A stretch of DNA of 22,599 nt. It comes from a virus. The notes under the pieces are model-generated. The model did not search any database. It had not been told where the DNA came from and was given only the letters and a program-made list of their open reading frames with translations. The stretch spans positions 1-22,599 of the IMG/VR virus record IMGVR_UViG_3300009370_000183. One strand, given 5' to 3'. A program made the translations under genes and the position numbers. Positions 2,784 through 13,708 of the stretch are shown here, one piece after another; within the stretch, counting starts at the first letter, position 1, and every line of letters begins with the position of its first letter.

Positions 2784-2923
2784 CTGAAAATAATTAGGAT
2801 AATCGACAGACCCTAGTTGACACTATGAAAGTATAGGTTCCAGGAGAACTGAAATCGAGGTTTCGACCCGTAAGGATAATCAGCCGCTTAACATTAACAA
2901 TAACCAACCATAAGGAGAATAGT
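2784..2923 (+). promoter_or_regulatory. 140-nt leader region between scaffold and capsid genes
   Basis: This stretch has no gene. It holds the promoter candidate, a 9-bp direct repeat AGGATAATC (2796-2804 and 2873-2881), and small possible stem-loops downstream of the presumed start: GTTC/GAAC at 2837-2849, and GGT-TTCG-ACC at 2859-2868 with a UUCG tetraloop. It ends with TAAGGAG 7 nt before the capsid ATG at 2924, a strong ribosome binding site. A structured leader may stabilise the capsid mRNA, as in T7 gene 10. The stems are short, so that role is tentative. Confidence 0.5.
2811..2832 (+). promoter_or_regulatory. candidate phage RNA polymerase promoter (SP6/T7 type) for the capsid gene
   Basis: The segment CCCTAGTTGACACTATGAAAG aligns without gaps to the remembered SP6 promoter ATTTAGGTGACACTATAGAAG, with a run of nine identical bases, TGACACTAT. 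The expected start would be near 2827-2828, giving a leader of about 97 nt. The site lies in the only long gap between scaffold and capsid genes, where T7 keeps its strongest late promoter. The match is seen; activity, and the presence of a cognate single-subunit RNA polymerase outside this window, are inferred. Confidence 0.55.
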
Positions 2924-3058
2924 ATGTCTATTCAAATTACTACTTCTTTCGTTGAACAGTATAGCTCGAATATTGCTATGCTTTCTCAACAAATGGGAAG
3001 TAAACTTAGAGGTTCTGTTGATGTGGAAACTGTTAGAGGTAAAAACGCATTCTTCGAT
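2924..3058 (+). CDS. major capsid protein, exon 1 (codons 1-45)
   Basis: The first 45 codons of the T7 gp10A-like major capsid protein, starting MSIQITTSFVEQYSSN and ending VRGKNAFFD. The ATG has a strong TAAGGAG site. Reading straight on gives GAT followed at once by TAA, so genomic translation would stop at 45 residues. In related podovirus capsid proteins the FFD segment continues directly into a Q-V/I-G motif, and exactly that continuation (QVGVTAAQ) appears at 3286 in phase 0. The exon ends in CTTCGAT, which pairs with the intron guide sequence. Joined to 3286-4026 it encodes a 291-residue protein. An assembly error would not explain the intron structure between the parts. Confidence 0.9.
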
Positions 3059-3285
3059 TAACAAAATGGTCGAAGTAAAATTGGGTAAATTGCTGGGAAC
3101 TCTCATTGAGACAATCAGCAGCCAAGCCATATAATTTAAAAGGTATATGGAAGGTTCAACGACTAGGTATTGAGGAAACAATAATATACCCACGAAAACC
3201 CAACACTTTAAATAGTGATGATATAGTCTGAACTATATAGTGATATATAGAAGTAGTAATTAAAAAAAACTACGATAACAAAATG
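3059..3285 (+). ncRNA. group I self-splicing intron (IA-like) in the major capsid gene
   Basis: 227 nt. Its presence is argued from a nearly complete set of group I helices. P1: exon CTTCGAT (3052-3058) with GTCGAAG (3069-3075), with the required U-G wobble at the 5' splice site. P3: 3081-3086 with 3198-3203. P4: 3091-3095 with 3116-3120. P5: 3100-3102 with 3108-3110. P6: 3121-3123 with 3153-3155. P6a: 3127-3132 with 3145-3150. P7: GACTA 3161-3165 with TAGTC 3224-3228. P7.1: 3166-3170 with 3186-3190. P8: 3204-3207 with 3214-3217. P9: 3233-3238 with 3245-3250. P9.1: 3253-3257 with 3269-3273. The R-like GTTCAACGACTAG and S-like GATATAGTC elements are present, and the terminal base is G (3285). 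The P7.1 hairpin suggests subgroup IA. No homing endonuclease gene fits inside. Confidence 0.93.
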
Positions 3286-4026
3286 CAAGTCGGAGTAACA
3301 GCTGCTCAATTAAGAACGAGCAGACATGGCGATACACCTCAAATAGACACGCCACACAGCAGAAGAAGATTGAGCTTGGCTGACTATGAATGGGCTGACT
3401 TAGTTGACGATGTCGACAAAGTTAGAATGCTTATAGACCCAACTAGCTCATACGCTAAAGCAGCGGCAGCAGCTATGAACAGATCGATTGACGATGTAAT
3501 TATTACAGCGTTCAACGCATCGGCTGATACTGGTGTTGCTGGTGGTACATCTACAGCTTTACCTTCAACGCAAAAGACTGCGACTTCAGACCAATCAGAC
3601 GGTTTGACGATTGCTAAACTTTTAGCAGCGAAGAAAATCTTAGATAACAACGATGTTGACCCTTCATTGAAGAGATATGTCGTATGTGGACCACAACAGA
3701 TCTCAGATCTATTAGGAACTACTCAAGTAACTAGCTCTGACTATAATACAGTTAAAGCTCTTGCTGAAGGTAGTATCAATTCCTACTTAGGTTTTGAGTT
3801 CATAATGTCAACAAGATTGAACAAGGATGCAACGTACACTTCTGACAGATTAGTTTTTGCATATACTGAAGATGCCATCAAGTTAGGTATCGGAAAAGAT
3901 ATATCGGCAAAAATTTCGGAACGTGCTGACAAATCGTATAGTACGCAAGTTTATTATGCGATGAGTTTGGGAGCCGTTAGAATGGAAGAAGAAAAAGTTG
4001 TGCAAATCCCTTGTCATGAAGCATAA
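3286..4026 (+). CDS. major capsid protein, exon 2 (codon 46 to stop), T7 gp10A-like
   Basis: 246 codons plus stop, continuing the capsid protein after splicing. It begins QVGVTAAQ, then TSRHGDTPQIDTPHSRR and LADYEWADLVDDVDKVRMLIDPTSSYA, the hallmark block of marine T7-like capsid proteins, and ends with the usual C-terminal beta segment. HK97-fold coat protein, forming the icosahedral shell. An ATG at 3283-3285 sits in frame just before the exon, but it is the last three intron bases and has no ribosome binding site (the upstream sequence is A-rich), so it is not the true start. An automatic gene caller would report a truncated 247-residue protein here. Mature length by join(2924..3058,3286..4026) is 291. 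Confidence 0.95.
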   Translation, partial: QVGVTAAQLRTSRHGDTPQIDTPHSRRRLSLADYEWADLVDDVDKVRMLIDPTSSYAKAAAAAMNRSIDDVIITAFNASADTGVAGGTSTALPSTQKTATSDQSDGLTIAKLLAAKKILDNNDVDPSLKRYVVCGPQQISDLLGTTQVTSSDYNTVKALAEGSINSYLGFEFIMSTRLNKDATYTSDRLVFAYTEDAIKLGIGKDISAKISERADKSYSTQVYYAMSLGAVRMEEEKVVQIPCHEA

Positions 4027-5372: not shown

Positions 5373-8138
5373 ATGGGAAAACAACTTTTAAGCATCCCTA
5401 GCTTTACGGCTGGGGAGCTTTCCTCTTCTATGGAGGGAAGAACAGATTTTGCAAAATACTTTAATGGTGCAACGAATATTGAAAACTTTGTGGTTATGCC
5501 ACATGGACCAATAACAAGACGACCAGGAACTTATTTTGTATCTGAAATAAAAACATCCGCAAACAAAACAAGACTTATTCCTTTTACATTTTCAACTGAA
5601 CAAACTTACATTTTAGAATTTGGCAATCAATATATTCGTTTCTTTAAAGATGACGGTCAAATTGTAGAGGCTAATAAAACTATTACTGGAATTACTGCTG
5701 CTAATCCAGCTGTAGTTACATCTAACTCTCATGGTTATTCAAATGGAGATTTTGTAACTATCTCATCTGTTGTTGGAATGACAGAAGTAAATGGTAAAAC
5801 TTTTAAAGTAGCTGATAAAACTACTAATACTTTTGAATTACAAGATGTTGATGGTAACGATATAAACTCTTCTGGTTATACTGCTTATTCATCTGCTGGT
5901 GTAGCCAATAGAATTTACCAAATCACAACCAGTTATACGACAGCACAATTATTTGATTTAAAATTCGCACAATCCGCTGACGTTATGTATATCTGCCATC
6001 CATCTCATGAGGCATCTAAATTATCCAGAACGGGTCATACATCCTGGACACTTTCAGAAGTAGACTTTGCTGAAACTGGTCCCTACATGGATACCAACAC
6101 CACAACAACAACTTTAACTCCAGCATCCTCTGGAACTGGAACGGGTGTTAATATAACTGCTAGCTCAACCACAGGAATAAATGGTGGCGATGGCTGGCAA
6201 ACAACAGACGTTGGAAGAATTTTAAAATTTAATAGTGGCGAGGCTGTAATTACAGCACGAACTAACACAACCGTTGTAGTTTGCACAATCACTAAAGCAT
6301 TTACTAATACCGATGCAACAGCAGCATTTAATCTAGGTTCTTTTTCGGATACCACGGGTCATCCTTCGGTGGTTACATTTTTTCAACAAAGATTAGTATT
6401 TGCTGGAACTTCAGATCAACCACAAACTATGTTTTTCTCAAAGTCTGGAGATTATGAGAATATGACAGCTGGAACTGATGCTGACGATGCTATGATTTAT
6501 ACTATTGCATCCAACCAGGTTAATGCGATTAAAGCTATGAAGGCAACGAGAACTTTAATTGTAATGACAACGGGTGGAGAATATGCTGTCTCTGCTGGAA
6601 CCGCATCTGCAATCACACCGACAAATATTTCAATCATTAAACAATCCAACTATGGTTCAGCGGGAGTAGATGCTTTATCTATTGGTAACGCAACTATCTT
6701 TTTACAAAGAGCAAAAAGAAAAATGAGAGAACTTGCTTATAATTTTGATACCGATGGTTATGTTGCTCCAGATTTAACTATTCTTTCTGAACATATAACT
6801 GAAAGTGGTATTACTCAAATGGATTACCAACAAGAGCCATATTCAGTTGTTTGGGGAGCAAGAACAGATGGAATTTTAACTGGTTTAACTTATAACAGAT
6901 TAGAAAATGTTGTTGCTTGGCATAGACACATTATAGGCGGTAAGTCTGACACTACAAAAAATATTATTCAACAATCAATTAGTTTCACTTCAAATTCTTC
7001 AAATGTAAATACCACAGCTAATACAATTACTATTTCATCACACGGTTTATCAACTGCTGATCCAGTTTATTATTATGCTGGCTCTAATGCTATTGGTGGA
7101 TTAAATAATTCAACATTATATTATGCTATCGCAACCGATAGTAATACCATTAAACTAGCCACAACCGCATCGAATGCTACTGCGGGAACGGCTGTATCTT
7201 TTACTTCAGCTCCAAGTTCAGACACAACTCAATACATTTATCAAGGTGTTAATATTTCATCTAATTTTATTTATTCAGCATCTCATGGTTTTGTTACTGG
7301 CGATATTTTTTATTATGATAATACAGGAACAGCTATTGGTGGTTTATCTGAAAATACAAAATATTATATTGAAAAAATTGATAACAACCAATTTAAACTT
7401 TATTCAGATAAAACTTTAGACACCGTTGTTAGTTTAACTTCAGCTCACACATCGGAGCAAACAGATAATATTTTAACTCATGCTTTAGTAGAAAGTGTTG
7501 CGGTAATTGATGGCGATGCAGACGAAGATCAAGTTTGGGTTATAGTTCAAAGATGGATTAACGGAGCTGTAAGAAGATATGTAGAATACTTTACTCCATT
7601 TGATTTTAATAGAGATGTTACTGCATTCCATTATTTAGATAGTGGATTAAGTTATGTTGGCGATGAAACATCCACACTTACAGGATTAGATCATTTAGAA
7701 GGGGAAGTTGTAGATATTATTGGCGAAGGTGCTGCACAAACCTCAAAGACAGTTTCAAGCGGAAGTATATCAATAGACAATGCAACGGAGCAAGCAAAAG
7801 TTGGTTTACTTTATACATCTGATTTACAAACGATGAGATTAGATGAAGGTTATACAGAAACAACTCAAACGAAAACAAAAAGAATTTATGATTTATCTGT
7901 TAGGTTTCAAGATACCGTTGGAGCTAAAGTTGGACCCAATGCAGCAAACTTAACATCAATAGATTTTAGAGCTAGTGGATCTCCAATGGATTTACCTATT
8001 CCTTTATTTACTGGAGATAAACAAGTGGAATTTGACACAGGCTATGGCACAGAAGGATTAGTTTATGTTCAACAACCACAAGCTCTACCAATGACTATCC
8101 TGGGTATTTATCCAAGATTGGAGACAGAGAGTGTCTAA
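5373..8138 (+). CDS. tail tubular protein B (nozzle), T7 gp12-like, with inserted beta modules
   Basis: 921 residues, longer than T7 gp12 (794). It builds the tail nozzle. The start (FTAGELSSSMEGRTDFAKYFNGATN, then PHGPITRRPGTYFV) and the motifs VVTFFQQRLVFAGTSDQPQTMFFSKSGDYENM and VVAWHRH are diagnostic of the family. Three similar small modules interrupt it: about residues 108-172 (SHGYSNGDFV), and two tandem copies at about 540-610 and 615-690 (SHGL and SHGF followed by YY and AIGGL). The tandem pair sits between VVAWHRHIIGG and VESVAVIDG, which are close together in simpler homologues, and accounts for much of the extra length. The modules look like surface-exposed, possibly sugar-binding, beta domains; that is inference. 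The end overlaps the next gene by 8 nt. Confidence 0.93.
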   Translation: MGKQLLSIPSFTAGELSSSMEGRTDFAKYFNGATNIENFVVMPHGPITRRPGTYFVSEIKTSANKTRLIPFTFSTEQTYILEFGNQYIRFFKDDGQIVEANKTITGITAANPAVVTSNSHGYSNGDFVTISSVVGMTEVNGKTFKVADKTTNTFELQDVDGNDINSSGYTAYSSAGVANRIYQITTSYTTAQLFDLKFAQSADVMYICHPSHEASKLSRTGHTSWTLSEVDFAETGPYMDTNTTTTTLTPASSGTGTGVNITASSTTGINGGDGWQTTDVGRILKFNSGEAVITARTNTTVVVCTITKAFTNTDATAAFNLGSFSDTTGHPSVVTFFQQRLVFAGTSDQPQTMFFSKSGDYENMTAGTDADDAMIYTIASNQVNAIKAMKATRTLIVMTTGGEYAVSAGTASAITPTNISIIKQSNYGSAGVDALSIGNATIFLQRAKRKMRELAYNFDTDGYVAPDLTILSEHITESGITQMDYQQEPYSVVWGARTDGILTGLTYNRLENVVAWHRHIIGGKSDTTKNIIQQSISFTSNSSNVNTTANTITISSHGLSTADPVYYYAGSNAIGGLNNSTLYYAIATDSNTIKLATTASNATAGTAVSFTSAPSSDTTQYIYQGVNISSNFIYSASHGFVTGDIFYYDNTGTAIGGLSENTKYYIEKIDNNQFKLYSDKTLDTVVSLTSAHTSEQTDNILTHALVESVAVIDGDADEDQVWVIVQRWINGAVRRYVEYFTPFDFNRDVTAFHYLDSGLSYVGDETSTLTGLDHLEGEVVDIIGEGAAQTSKTVSSGSISIDNATEQAKVGLLYTSDLQTMRLDEGYTETTQTKTKRIYDLSVRFQDTVGAKVGPNAANLTSIDFRASGSPMDLPIPLFTGDKQVEFDTGYGTEGLVYVQQPQALPMTILGIYPRLETESV

Positions 8139-9029: not shown

Positions 9030-11123
9030 ATGGCAATAAAATTATACAAATCACAATTAGAACCAACAGCTAAATCTTCAAATGTAGAAAATAGAGCTTT
9101 CGCTAGTATGAGTGAGGCTGGTTCTATCGGTAGAGCTTTTAAAGGCATGGTTCAATCTGGAGAAAAACTTTACTATAAACATTTAGATATAAAATCAGAT
9201 AATGAAGTTTTAGAAAAATCTAAAGAAGTTATGAATGGTTCAGATACTTTTGAAGGATTAAGTTCTATAACTTTAAAAGCATCACAAATGAGTGATCCAG
9301 ATGCAGCTCTTAAATATTACAACGAGGCTTGGCAAAAAATATTTGATAGTTCAAGTAGCAATTTATCTCCAATGGCTCAAAAGAAATTTAAACATTGGAT
9401 GACAAAACAAAATATTAAAGATGCTCATTCTATAAAAGTTCAAGCCACAACTAATATGATTAATTCTTTAAGAACTAATAAATTAGATCAAATTGAAACT
9501 TTAAAAAAATCTATTATTTTTGGAGCATCTTTAGAAAGTGAAACAGCTAGAGGCGAATTGGAAGCTATATTTTCAGATAAAAAAACTTTAGAAATATTTG
9601 GTAATAAATTAGATGGAGTTATTAAATCTACCAGAAGAGATATAGCTTTTTATGGTTATAAAAATATGTCTTTATCTGAAAAGGATAAAGTATTAGCAGC
9701 TGCTTTAAAAGATGACAGAATAAATGATGAAGATTATTTAAAACTTAAAACTCATTTTGAGGCAAAAAAATCATCTATAAATCATAAAAATAGAAACGAT
9801 GTTAATAATATGCAAAGCAATATGGAGAGTGGTTTATCTATTAATACGGATGAATTTGAAACAGCTGTTGCTATCGCATTAGAAACACAAGATGAAAAAA
9901 CTTTATTAAAATTAGAACAAATAAGAATAGATGCTCCTATTTATGCTCAACTATCAACCATGTCTGTAGCTGATATAGAAAACAGAGTTAATATTTTAAC
10001 TGAATATAAAAATACAAAAAGGGATGGTATGGAATTAAAATGGGCGAACAATTTAAACATATCAAAAAAATATCTTGCAGCTTTAACAACATCTTTAAAT
10101 AAAGATCAATTAATGACGGGTAATGATAGAGGCGTTGTTAATATTGATGAAATAGGTTTTGAAAAATTATTAACTACTGGAGATATTTCAGAATTTGCAT
10201 CAGATATAAAAGAAAGAATTGCACAAGCTAAAACAGTTGCAAATCATTATAAAAGACCCGTAGTATTTTTTACTGCAAATGAAAAAACAGCTATCCAGGG
10301 TGCGTTTGAAAGTGCAACAACTTCAGATCAAATTATTAATTTATCAACAGCTCTGGTTCAAGGTTTTGGACAAGACAGCGATTTAGCTTTTCAAGAACTT
10401 TCTAAAGATAATACTTTCTTAGCTCACGTTGGCGGATTGGTTATGTCAAATAATGGTGTACCAGGAAACAATGTTAGATTAGCTGTTCAAGGCTACATGA
10501 TGTTTAAAAATAATCCAGATCTTGTTAAAGCATACAAAGTTAAATCTACAGATAATAATTATTTAACAAAAATTGGAGAATATAACGAGGCTTTTTTAGA
10601 AAATAGTAATACTTTTAATAGTACCGTTGAAATGGCAAATTATATTTTTGCAGCTGAATTAAAAAATTCTGGAAAATCTATAGGCAATTTACCTTTTAAT
10701 TGGGATGATGATTGGGAAAAAGCATTTAAGATGGCTGCTGGAGGAACCTTTATAACAGAAGGAAGAAATCATTGGATGGGTGGTTTTGATGAATGGAATG
10801 GTAATAAAGTTCATATTCCAAATTGGATAAAAGAAGGAAATTTTGACAACATAGTTGAATTATTAAAAAAACATCCAGAATTAGTTGATATGGCATCAAG
10901 TAACGATCAAGCTCCAGTTGATGTAACTGGAAAAACTATAAATATATTTGAAAATCAAGATCCTTATTTTGTAAGTGTAGGAGATGGTTTGTATAAAATT
11001 GCCATGGGAGAAAATCCTAAAGTAAGTGGAGCAGAAGAAGAATATGCCATGAATACTGATAATGGATTTTTTGTTATCGACTTAAATAAAATTAAAGAAG
11101 ATATAATAACAAGTTTAAAATAA
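9030..11123 (+). CDS. internal virion protein, T7 gp15-like
   Basis: 697 residues (T7 gp15 has 747), almost wholly helical and soluble, with no membrane segment or catalytic motif. The N-terminus (KLYKSQLEPTAKSSNVENRAF) is an extended arm like those of ejection proteins in marine T7-like phages. Middle parts contain repeated Lys/Glu/Asn-rich helices, and the C-terminal third carries NWDDDWEKAFKMAAGGTF, resembling the conserved end domain of gp15-like proteins. It probably forms the internal core tube and the periplasmic part of the DNA channel. The TAA overlaps the next ATG as TAATG. Sequence identity in this class is weak, so order and size carry much of the argument. Confidence 0.8.
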   Translation: MAIKLYKSQLEPTAKSSNVENRAFASMSEAGSIGRAFKGMVQSGEKLYYKHLDIKSDNEVLEKSKEVMNGSDTFEGLSSITLKASQMSDPDAALKYYNEAWQKIFDSSSSNLSPMAQKKFKHWMTKQNIKDAHSIKVQATTNMINSLRTNKLDQIETLKKSIIFGASLESETARGELEAIFSDKKTLEIFGNKLDGVIKSTRRDIAFYGYKNMSLSEKDKVLAAALKDDRINDEDYLKLKTHFEAKKSSINHKNRNDVNNMQSNMESGLSINTDEFETAVAIALETQDEKTLLKLEQIRIDAPIYAQLSTMSVADIENRVNILTEYKNTKRDGMELKWANNLNISKKYLAALTTSLNKDQLMTGNDRGVVNIDEIGFEKLLTTGDISEFASDIKERIAQAKTVANHYKRPVVFFTANEKTAIQGAFESATTSDQIINLSTALVQGFGQDSDLAFQELSKDNTFLAHVGGLVMSNNGVPGNNVRLAVQGYMMFKNNPDLVKAYKVKSTDNNYLTKIGEYNEAFLENSNTFNSTVEMANYIFAAELKNSGKSIGNLPFNWDDDWEKAFKMAAGGTFITEGRNHWMGGFDEWNGNKVHIPNWIKEGNFDNIVELLKKHPELVDMASSNDQAPVDVTGKTINIFENQDPYFVSVGDGLYKIAMGENPKVSGAEEEYAMNTDNGFFVIDLNKIKEDIITSLK

Positions 11124-13708
11124 TGACTATTTTTTTTGACACAGATACAGCTCTAACTCCACAAAACAATACGAGCTTTTCCAAAGGTATGAGAACTGAT
11201 TTTATGGATAATGTTAGCTCTGCTTATAATGCTTTTACTAGATCAGAATTATTCTCTTCTGAAAGAAGTAATCTTGCCGAAGAATATATTAATGTAGTTG
11301 ATATATTAACAAGAGCGGGTCATAGTGGTTTTGTATCTCCATTAGATCAAGATTTAAAATTAGAACCTTTAGGTTCTGGAGCATCATCTATTTTTGGTGT
11401 TCATCGTTTCGATTTAACTAAAAAAAAATCTAGGCAAGAGTTAGAGGCTGAATTTTGGAATAAAGTAACCGAGTTACAAACAACAGATGAAAATTTAAAA
11501 GCTGCATTAGTTGAGGCTGGGTTAGATACTCAAGAAAATATGCAAAAAATTATTGCAGAAAAAACCCATAAAGCCTGGGAAGAATATCAAAAAATAAACG
11601 AAAGAGCATCTGGAGAATGGTACACAGGCGGAGGTAAAACTGGAGGATTTACTGGTATAGCTGGCGGAGCTTTCACAGATCCTATTATGCTTGCAACTAT
11701 TCCAATATCTTTTGGTTATTCAGTTCCAGCAACATTTGGTAAGGCAGCTTGGAAAGTTGCTAAATATGAAATGATTATAGGAGCTGTAGCTGAAACTATG
11801 ATCCAGTTAAAAGCTCAACCTTATAGAAAAGAATTAGGATTTGAAGATGCTGGTTTAGAAACTGGTTTAAAAAATATTGCAATGGTTACAGCGGCAGCTG
11901 GTGTATTATCTCCAGTTCTTTACGGAGTATTTAAAGCATTTGGTAAAGGTGTTGATGTTGGTAAAAAATATCTTTTTAAATTATCAGATGAAGAAATAAA
12001 TCAAGTATCAAAAGAGTTAGGAAATATTAATCCAAAGTTTAAAGATAAAACTTTAGATAACTATAAAATTCCAGAAAAAGATAATCCTTTTCCAGATAAT
12101 GCTGCTGGTAGAACAGAGCATAGAGAAAGATTAGATGCTGCGGTTAAATCAGTTAATGAGAATACACCATTAGATTTACCACCAGCTAAAAATCATATTG
12201 TACCAGATAACCTTGAACCACCAGTTAATCTTAAACCTGGAGAATTTGCTGATATTTTTGATGCAAATGGTAATATTGTAAGAACCCAAGTTGTTAAAGT
12301 AAGTACAACAGGAAACTCTATAAAGGTAAAATTAGGAGATGGAACTGAAAAAATTATTGGTTTAGATCCTAAATCTGGAGCTTTTCAAAATATTAGAAAT
12401 CCAAATTATGTTATCAGATCGGCTGGTTTAAATGCACAGGGAAAATCTGTATCTCAATTATCTAAACAAGAAGTTAATACTATTAGAAAAAAATTAATAG
12501 AAAGAAAAGAAAATTTAGAAAAAGAAGGAAGAATTAACGAGGGAGCTTATCACGATACTGTTCAAGACTTAAATTCTATTGATTTTAATATTAATAAAAC
12601 AACAACAAATACTAACTCTCCAAGAATTGAAAAAGCTACATTTAATAAAAACGAAAGCAAATTAGCAGAAGATATTGAAGGAGTTAAAGAATTTGATGTA
12701 CCGAATGAGGCAGCTTATAGAAATCAAGCCTCTGTAACAGAGGCATCCATGTTTGATGAGGGAACATCGTTAGCCATAAGAAGTGAGGCTGGTGCTGGCG
12801 ATGCTGCAAAAACAGTACCTACTGGTAAGCCTTTAGCAAAAACCCAAGATTTAGTATCAAAATCCCAACTAACAGATACAGCTCCTCCATCTACAGTTTT
12901 AGCAACTGCACAAAGTAAACCTCCACTACTTACTCGTGGAGAAACAAATAAAGTTGTTGGCGACATTAGTTCCATAGGTTTTCCATTATATCATAAAACG
13001 GATAATTTCAATGAGATATATAAAACATTATCCAAGAAGATGGATGCTGTTAAGAAAGAATTACAACCTATAGCAACAAAATATAATGGCGATTTAAAGG
13101 CAAGAATTAAGGAAATTAAGAGTTTAAAGGAAAAATTAGCAACTAAAGATAAAATAACACCTCAAAATGTCTCAGATTTTTTAGGTGCTAGAATTAGTTT
13201 GGATACCATTACACAAGCAAAATTGGTATATTCTGAGTTAAATAAAAAGTTTAAGTTAATTTTTAAAGATGATTTCTTAGATGATGTTGGAAGAACATTA
13301 ACTCACAATACAGAATATAGAAGGATCCATTTACAAGCATTAACTAAAGATGGTTTTTCTTTTGAATTACAAGTTTCTCTTAAAGAATTAGATCCATTAA
13401 TAGACATAAATCATGCTTTTTACAAAAAACTAGAATATCAAAAAGATACACTTTCAAAATCTGAAATATTAGATTTAGTTAAAAAGCAAAAAGTAGCCGA
13501 GGCTAATATAAAAAATAAATATTTTAAAATTAAAGATAAAGAATTTTCAAGATTAAATCCTACTAATGATGTTGATGTTCCATTTGTTATTGGAACTAGA
13601 TTAGATGAGAATGGAGAAAAAGTACCACTCACTACAACTGCTAGAGAGGCATTTGAACAAGATGCAAAAGATTTAACGATGCTTAAAAGATTGGAGAATT
13701 GTATATGA
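11123..13708 (+). CDS. ejected internal virion protein with RelA/SpoT-type nucleotidyltransferase domain
   Basis: 861 residues, between gp15-like and gp16-like genes. N-terminal half: helical, with Gly/Ala-rich hydrophobic stretches at about 173-206 and 250-274 that could insert in membrane. Middle (about 290-620): polar, partly disordered, with a small beta segment near 375-420. C-terminal part, about 640-790: a RelA/SpoT synthetase-like domain with, in order, ARIKEIKSLKEKL (660-672), DFLGARISL (D685, R690), KDDFLDDVG, YRRIHL (Y732, H736), FELQV (E748) and NHAFYKK (H764). These fit the ATP-binding Arg/Lys, Mg-binding Asp, guanine-stacking Tyr and conserved Glu of (p)ppGpp synthetases. The core residues appear intact. 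Ejection is inferred from position; activity and substrate are unknown. The stop overlaps the next start in ATGA. Confidence 0.8.
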   Translation: MTIFFDTDTALTPQNNTSFSKGMRTDFMDNVSSAYNAFTRSELFSSERSNLAEEYINVVDILTRAGHSGFVSPLDQDLKLEPLGSGASSIFGVHRFDLTKKKSRQELEAEFWNKVTELQTTDENLKAALVEAGLDTQENMQKIIAEKTHKAWEEYQKINERASGEWYTGGGKTGGFTGIAGGAFTDPIMLATIPISFGYSVPATFGKAAWKVAKYEMIIGAVAETMIQLKAQPYRKELGFEDAGLETGLKNIAMVTAAAGVLSPVLYGVFKAFGKGVDVGKKYLFKLSDEEINQVSKELGNINPKFKDKTLDNYKIPEKDNPFPDNAAGRTEHRERLDAAVKSVNENTPLDLPPAKNHIVPDNLEPPVNLKPGEFADIFDANGNIVRTQVVKVSTTGNSIKVKLGDGTEKIIGLDPKSGAFQNIRNPNYVIRSAGLNAQGKSVSQLSKQEVNTIRKKLIERKENLEKEGRINEGAYHDTVQDLNSIDFNINKTTTNTNSPRIEKATFNKNESKLAEDIEGVKEFDVPNEAAYRNQASVTEASMFDEGTSLAIRSEAGAGDAAKTVPTGKPLAKTQDLVSKSQLTDTAPPSTVLATAQSKPPLLTRGETNKVVGDISSIGFPLYHKTDNFNEIYKTLSKKMDAVKKELQPIATKYNGDLKARIKEIKSLKEKLATKDKITPQNVSDFLGARISLDTITQAKLVYSELNKKFKLIFKDDFLDDVGRTLTHNTEYRRIHLQALTKDGFSFELQVSLKELDPLIDINHAFYKKLEYQKDTLSKSEILDLVKKQKVAEANIKNKYFKIKDKEFSRLNPTNDVDVPFVIGTRLDENGEKVPLTTTAREAFEQDAKDLTMLKRLENCI

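Follow-up and report, generated by a model that had tools for sequence, protein, structure and literature searches.

A 227-nt group I intron splits the major capsid gene of a relative of HTVC010P-type pelagiphages and has close kin at several sites of the same gene

The window, a separate IMG/VR virus record of 22,599 bases analysed here at its full length, carries a group I intron of 227 nt (3059-3285) inside its major capsid gene. We consider it highly probable (about 0.95) that this compact, ORF-less intron splits the gene between codons 45 and 46, that the transcript self-splices, and that the intron belongs to a family mobile across sites. What stands out is not the location in a capsid gene. 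It is the occupation of multiple sites of one gene, sometimes with two introns per gene: as far as sequence comparison can tell, close relatives of the intron lie at three or more sites (45|46, 66|67 and about 277|278). The original prediction of this intron is confirmed as an observation and its core interpretation is supported, its claim of rarity is not, and the mode of movement is something we infer. The parts of the gene are the following.

2912-2917, plus strand: Shine-Dalgarno-like AAGGAG of the capsid gene (sequence reading)
2924-3058, plus strand: major capsid protein exon 1, residues 1-45, ending in FFD (aligns with residues 1-45 of uninterrupted homologues)
3059-3285, plus strand: group I intron, 227 nt, no ORF (RF00028, 86.7 bits; boundaries from empty sites and P1)
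3285, plus strand: the intron's terminal guanosine, the last base before the reading frame resumes
3286-4026, plus strand: major capsid protein exon 2, residues 46-291 (the spliced protein matches PHROG 3437, major head protein, at E 1.3e-91)

Exon 1 runs from its ATG to TTC TTC GAT and is followed by a TAA codon (3059-3061), and exon 2 opens with CAA GTC GGA (QVG) at 3286; the coordinates first proposed for the intron, exon 1, the stop and the resumption of the frame are correct to the base. The spliced junction, joining 3058 to 3286, reads ...TTCTTCGAT-CAAGTCGGAGT. G3285 is fixed as the intron end by the reading frame and by empty sites, and nearly every complete relative of the intron also ends in G. 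Intronless IMG/VR relatives show precisely the vacant site, TTCTTCGAT|CAAGT. One of these (L004) agrees with the window base for base through 86 nt before the site and 68 nt after it, and the insertion is thus clean, with no duplication or loss. The 227-nt insert also occurs at the identical site in contigs of other IMG/VR sample accessions, hence it was not created by the assembly of a single contig. Reading the intron in six frames gave no ORF of note, hence no intron-encoded endonuclease. The intron's first ten bases, TAACAAAATG (3059-3068), are repeated as its last ten (3276-3285); this end repeat has near-copies in L049 and L090 and is absent from site-B introns.

The spliced product has 291 residues, of which 1-290 match PHROG 3437. 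Its alignment to related capsid proteins had been proposed as a check, and it aligns in one piece, over 98-100% of the length and with 58-65% identity, with 22 Pelagibacter phage records. These include HTVC010P and Lederberg EXVC029P, have an uninterrupted capsid, and in none of the 22 does the capsid gene contain an intron. Automatic annotation had been expected to call a truncated capsid, and a 247-aa ORF starting at ATG 3283 is indeed present in the mechanical ORF list. More generally, machine annotation of carriers will yield capsid reading frames that lack an N- or C-terminal part.

The Rfam search suggested with the original prediction bore it out. Scanning the window at E<=1 gave a sole match, to RF00028 (3022-3250, 86.7 bits, E 3.7e-21, full-length model), for which the gathering score is 50. 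Rfam places P1 slightly upstream of the better P1 at 3052-3058/3069-3075. The minimum free energy of 3045-3300 is lower than that of 200/200 dinucleotide shuffles (z -2.97). The elements of the ribozyme are these.

3052-3058, plus strand: 5' strand of P1, the exon bases CUUCGAU with the splice-site U last; partner strand 3069-3075, re-matched from site to site
3069-3075, plus strand: internal guide sequence GUCGAAG (P1 3' strand), its first G in the U-G wobble (P1 comparison across sites)
3081-3086, plus strand: P3 5' strand; pairs with 3198-3203, double-sided changes in 4 of 6 pairs
3091-3120, plus strand: P4 (3091-3096/3115-3120) and P5 (3101-3104/3108-3111) (covariation alignment)
3121-3155, plus strand: P6 (3121-3123/3153-3155) and P6a (3127-3132/3145-3150); double-sided changes in 5 of 6 P6a pairs
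3161-3165, plus strand: P7 5' strand GACUA; pairs with UAGUC at 3224-3228, invariant and paired in 12 of 12 introns
3166-3190, plus strand: P7.1-like stem (3166-3169/3187-3190) (covariation alignment)
3198-3217, plus strand: P3 3' strand (3198-3203) and P8 (3204-3207/3214-3217) (covariation alignment)
3224-3228, plus strand: P7 3' strand UAGUC (covariation alignment)
3233-3273, plus strand: P9 (3233-3239/3244-3250), double-sided changes in 5 of 7 pairs, and a further hairpin (3253-3257/3269-3273)

The catalytic core P3-P8 is present with its P7, and P3, P5, P6a, P8 and P9 covary among 12 related introns; the last hairpin was read from the sequence and is also in the minimum free energy fold. 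We take P7 (3161-3165/3224-3228) to be the guanosine-binding helix, and we assume that the P7.1-like stem (3166-3190) points to subgroup IA, to which the window intron probably belongs. Covariation was scored on the 12 aligned introns for nine helices, counting the P7 pseudoknot, with 45 pairs in all. Of the 536 cells, 99.4% are paired, and 21 of the 45 pairs show double-sided change, values somewhat favoured by a structure drawn from the very alignment scored. Not one of 500 shuffles scored as high, and sliding the partners by 1-3 columns lowered pairing to 26-42%.

P1 was analysed separately because the aligner shifts it. At the window site it has 7 bp including the splice-site wobble U3058-G3069, whereas P10 (CA/UG) would have just 2 bp, a point against the proposed splicing. 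The splice-site pair is U-G in 14 of 14 distinct exon/guide combinations, where the G was required by the design of the search, and two-sided changes occur at each of positions -2, -3 and -4. P1 is re-matched wherever the exon differs: the exon/guide pairs are CUUCGAU/GUCGAAG, AAAUCGAU/GUCGAUUU, AAAUUGAU/GUCAAUUU, AUGGAU/GUCCAU and AUCGGU/GCCGAU, and the second, third and fourth of these are all found at site 66|67 alone. A shorter P1, of 5 bp, is seen in one site-B copy (L311). Covariance model, covariation, matching of P1 to its guide, empty sites and the uninterrupted protein of isolates thus agree with the predicted endonuclease-free group I ribozyme in a major capsid gene.

The capsid transcript would fold into this ribozyme, the guide GUCGAAG pairing with the last seven bases of exon 1, CUUCGAU. 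A guanosine bound in P7 would attack after U3058, and exon 1 would then attack after G3285, joining FFD to QVG. We infer from the sequence that splicing proceeds in this way and that capsid synthesis relies on it; the original suggestion that capsid production depends fully on splicing seems fair. The suggestion that the ribozyme is near minimal size is fair too: short group I introns with a mean of about 206 nt are on record from phages (PMC12363816).

Among the first 80 IMG/VR relatives, two (L029, L049) have a 227-nt insert at 45|46, one (L070) has a related insert elsewhere in the capsid gene and the remaining members show no interruption; these loci are best matches to the query, hence biased toward uninterrupted genes, and do not form a prevalence sample. 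Further copies were gathered by IMG/VR pattern scans, which gave the following distribution over the capsid gene.

Site A, 45|46: window, L029 (= L091), L049, L090, L094-L097, L310
Site B, 66|67: L070, L092, L105, L311, L315/L316; GC-richer L187, L207, L216
Site C, about 277|278: L098, L101, L313, L315/L316
Site D, 69|70: L157, a single contig, P1 only 4 bp
Site E, 48|49: L207, a single contig
Site F, about 96|97: L314, a single contig, uncertain

Two loci (L315 and L316) have related introns at both B and C of one capsid gene. L207, a GC-richer relative, also has a doubly interrupted capsid gene (7227-7758): its group I introns score 55.9 and 84.2 bits, and the first is of a different type. 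At site F, exon 2 of L314 (around 254-487) resumes about 110 residues downstream and the putative last intron base is not G; this contig may be chimeric or deleted around the insert.

We built a tree of the intron core, leaving out P1 and the 3' tails. Pelagiphage-type introns of sites A, B and C cluster together (100/99), apart from the GC-richer site-B introns, and L310 (site A) pairs with L105 (site B) (98/96). A single clade is rejected by AU tests at p 9e-4 for the site-A introns, at p 2e-5 for those of site B and at p 3e-4 when only pelagiphage site B is considered. Hence, the intron changed site, or was re-acquired from close kin, more than once. The picture suggested by these data is of an intron family that has settled at several positions of the capsid gene among HTVC010P-type phages and related ones, switching sites more than once, with the guide presumably re-matched to each new exon.

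The intron also appears to pass between phages faster than the capsid gene diverges. Between L090 and the window it is 97% identical, against 74% for the exons and 54% for third codon positions. Ribozyme constraint accounts for part of this contrast, but the loops are conserved too, which makes lateral spread between phages likely. Annotated phages gave partial intron matches only among those listed, covering at most 64% of the query at about 68-80% identity, and thus no close donor is seen among isolates. The capsid gene of L070 is identical to the window through most of its second half and follows the intronless L002 around the sites. At site B it has C195, A201 and A204, as in the site-B carrier L092. 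These bases look like a short conversion tract, for which L002 was not necessarily a parent; the exact L070 site-B flank is absent from all intronless loci fetched.

How such movements occur is where the alternatives must be weighed. As we read the sequences, two sets of options lead. Within a site, the intron may spread by recombination or by homing supplied in trans; between sites, it may move by reverse splicing or by ectopic recombination, with a shared UCGRU target as the guide. The explanation that fares best, though we would put it somewhat short of even odds, is collaborative homing, in which a free-standing homing endonuclease acts in trans and repair copies the intron with its flanks. 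The mixed resemblances of L070, close to L002 in much of exon 1 and across site B yet with the three bases of L092, fit such copying, and in other phages many related introns come with homing endonucleases. Yet, the Pfam models HNH_3, GIY-YIG, HNH and LAGLIDADG_1 had no match in 21 records, mostly fragments but including relatives of 36-38 kb and a carrier of 32 kb, and positive controls worked. These searches, like the one for reverse transcriptase, used single Pfam models on mostly fragmentary records, and a gene elsewhere in the genome is possible. For co-conversion at site A, sliding identity is not diagnostic: exon identity does rise near the site, but the intronless L028, L003 and L004 show an equal local rise.

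One might instead suppose that the intron moves at the RNA level, by reverse splicing into abundant capsid mRNA at sites matching its guide, followed by reverse transcription and recombination. We hold this to be doubtful. In its favour, a UCGRU-like target lies just 5' of the junction at the main sites and a site-A guide sequence pairs over 5 bp with the exons of sites B and C, but the shared target may instead reflect conserved codons. That relatives of the intron occupy several positions in one gene, sometimes two together, and that no endonuclease was found also speak for it. This is countered by the donor-type flanking bases of L070 at site B, which suggest a DNA step, and by the reverse transcriptase model RVT_1, without a match in 27 records (mostly fragments; the positive control worked). 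The broader proposal, that small ORF-less group I introns move within one highly expressed gene by reverse splicing, the guide picking UCGRU targets in the mRNA and then adapting, we regard as unlikely.

The two readings that dispense with a working intron fare much worse. That the insert is a degenerate or dead intron, or a sequence or assembly artefact, in a non-viable phage might be suspected of any single metagenomic contig; it is very improbable given that several contigs from different sample accessions have the same intron at the same site, with frames open on both sides, and that the helices are maintained through compensatory changes. Translational bypassing as in T4 gene 60, whereby ribosomes would leave at the GAT before TAA and land downstream on an intact RNA, takes account of the stop right after GAT and of the GAT that recurs near the 3' end within the copied stretch CGAT(T)AACAAAATG, but we reject it almost outright: landing there adds NKM, absent from aligned homologues, the ribozyme core match and the covariation are left unexplained, and the copies at sites B and C have no immediate stop.

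Returning to the predicted self-splicing intron, the window copy is ordinary in kind. Its relatives form a compact natural series, one ribozyme at three or more sites of an essential gene, which pairs intron-bearing with intronless close phages; the group has cultured SAR11 phages among its relatives. Hence, how group I introns reach new sites becomes testable outside rDNA. Nuclear rDNA likewise has related group I introns at separate sites of a single gene, from which reverse splicing has been argued (PMC1299323; review PMC3984707), but ours is a protein-coding phage gene.

The original prediction also held group I introns to be uncommon in phage structural genes, and this did not stand. We scanned 133 exon fragments flanking related introns at 86 other loci. 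The capsid models of Pfam gave 24 fragment hits (SU10_MCP 12, Phage_capsid 4, Crass_capsid 4, Gp10A-like 2, Phage_capsid_3 1, P22 coat 1) and DNA polymerase B 6, counts in which both exons of one intron may figure and which come from introns resembling that of the window. Capsid is thus the commonest recognised host class among the listed families in this IMG/VR sample. By eye, introns of the same general type apparently interrupt capsid genes of unrelated phage families in L104, L112, L114, L115, L150, L128, L217, L312 and L108.

Published cases (PMC3706429, PMC7886860) tell against rarity as well, and our literature search on introns in pelagiphages found no relevant paper. Mycobacteriophage LittleE has a group I-type intron in its major capsid gene (PMC3706429), which resembles ours in having intronless relatives, a U before the intron, a G at its end and a related stretch in a different gene, the tail gene of BAKA. 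It differs in its length of 819 bp with a LAGLIDADG-like ORF, in splicing having been shown by RT-PCR and N-terminal sequencing, in phage and capsid family, and in having no multi-site family in one gene. PMC3706429 also cites a capsid intron in lactococcal phage Tuc2009. Several group I introns split the capsid gene of crAss-like phages (PMC7886860), but these are known by their endonuclease domains, whereas the introns of the window and its relatives are ORF-less, with close kin at different sites. Jug phages likewise have short group I introns (mean about 206 nt) in essential genes, and metatranscriptomes support splicing for about half of those tested, but these are huge gut phages with many endonuclease genes (PMC12363816).

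Profile matches identify the neighbours of the capsid gene as a head-tail connector, a Bbp19-like protein, a protein of unknown function, which occupies the scaffold position, and tail proteins. This neighbourhood fits a podovirus head and tail module. Judged by its capsid protein and the families of its neighbours, the window phage, which is from the ocean, is a relative of HTVC010P-type pelagiphages. In contigs from two Pelagibacteraceae assemblies, capsid genes match a 138-aa query at 87-88% identity, and thus a SAR11-type host is likely. A capsid homologue, L085 (CACMZL010000001.1), lies within a 399-kb contig labelled Pelagibacteraceae and may belong to an integrated phage. Further along the window, at 11123-13708, an 861-aa protein with a RelA/SpoT-like region (PF04607, E 7.9e-9, residues 661-761) sits where podoviruses keep internal virion proteins.
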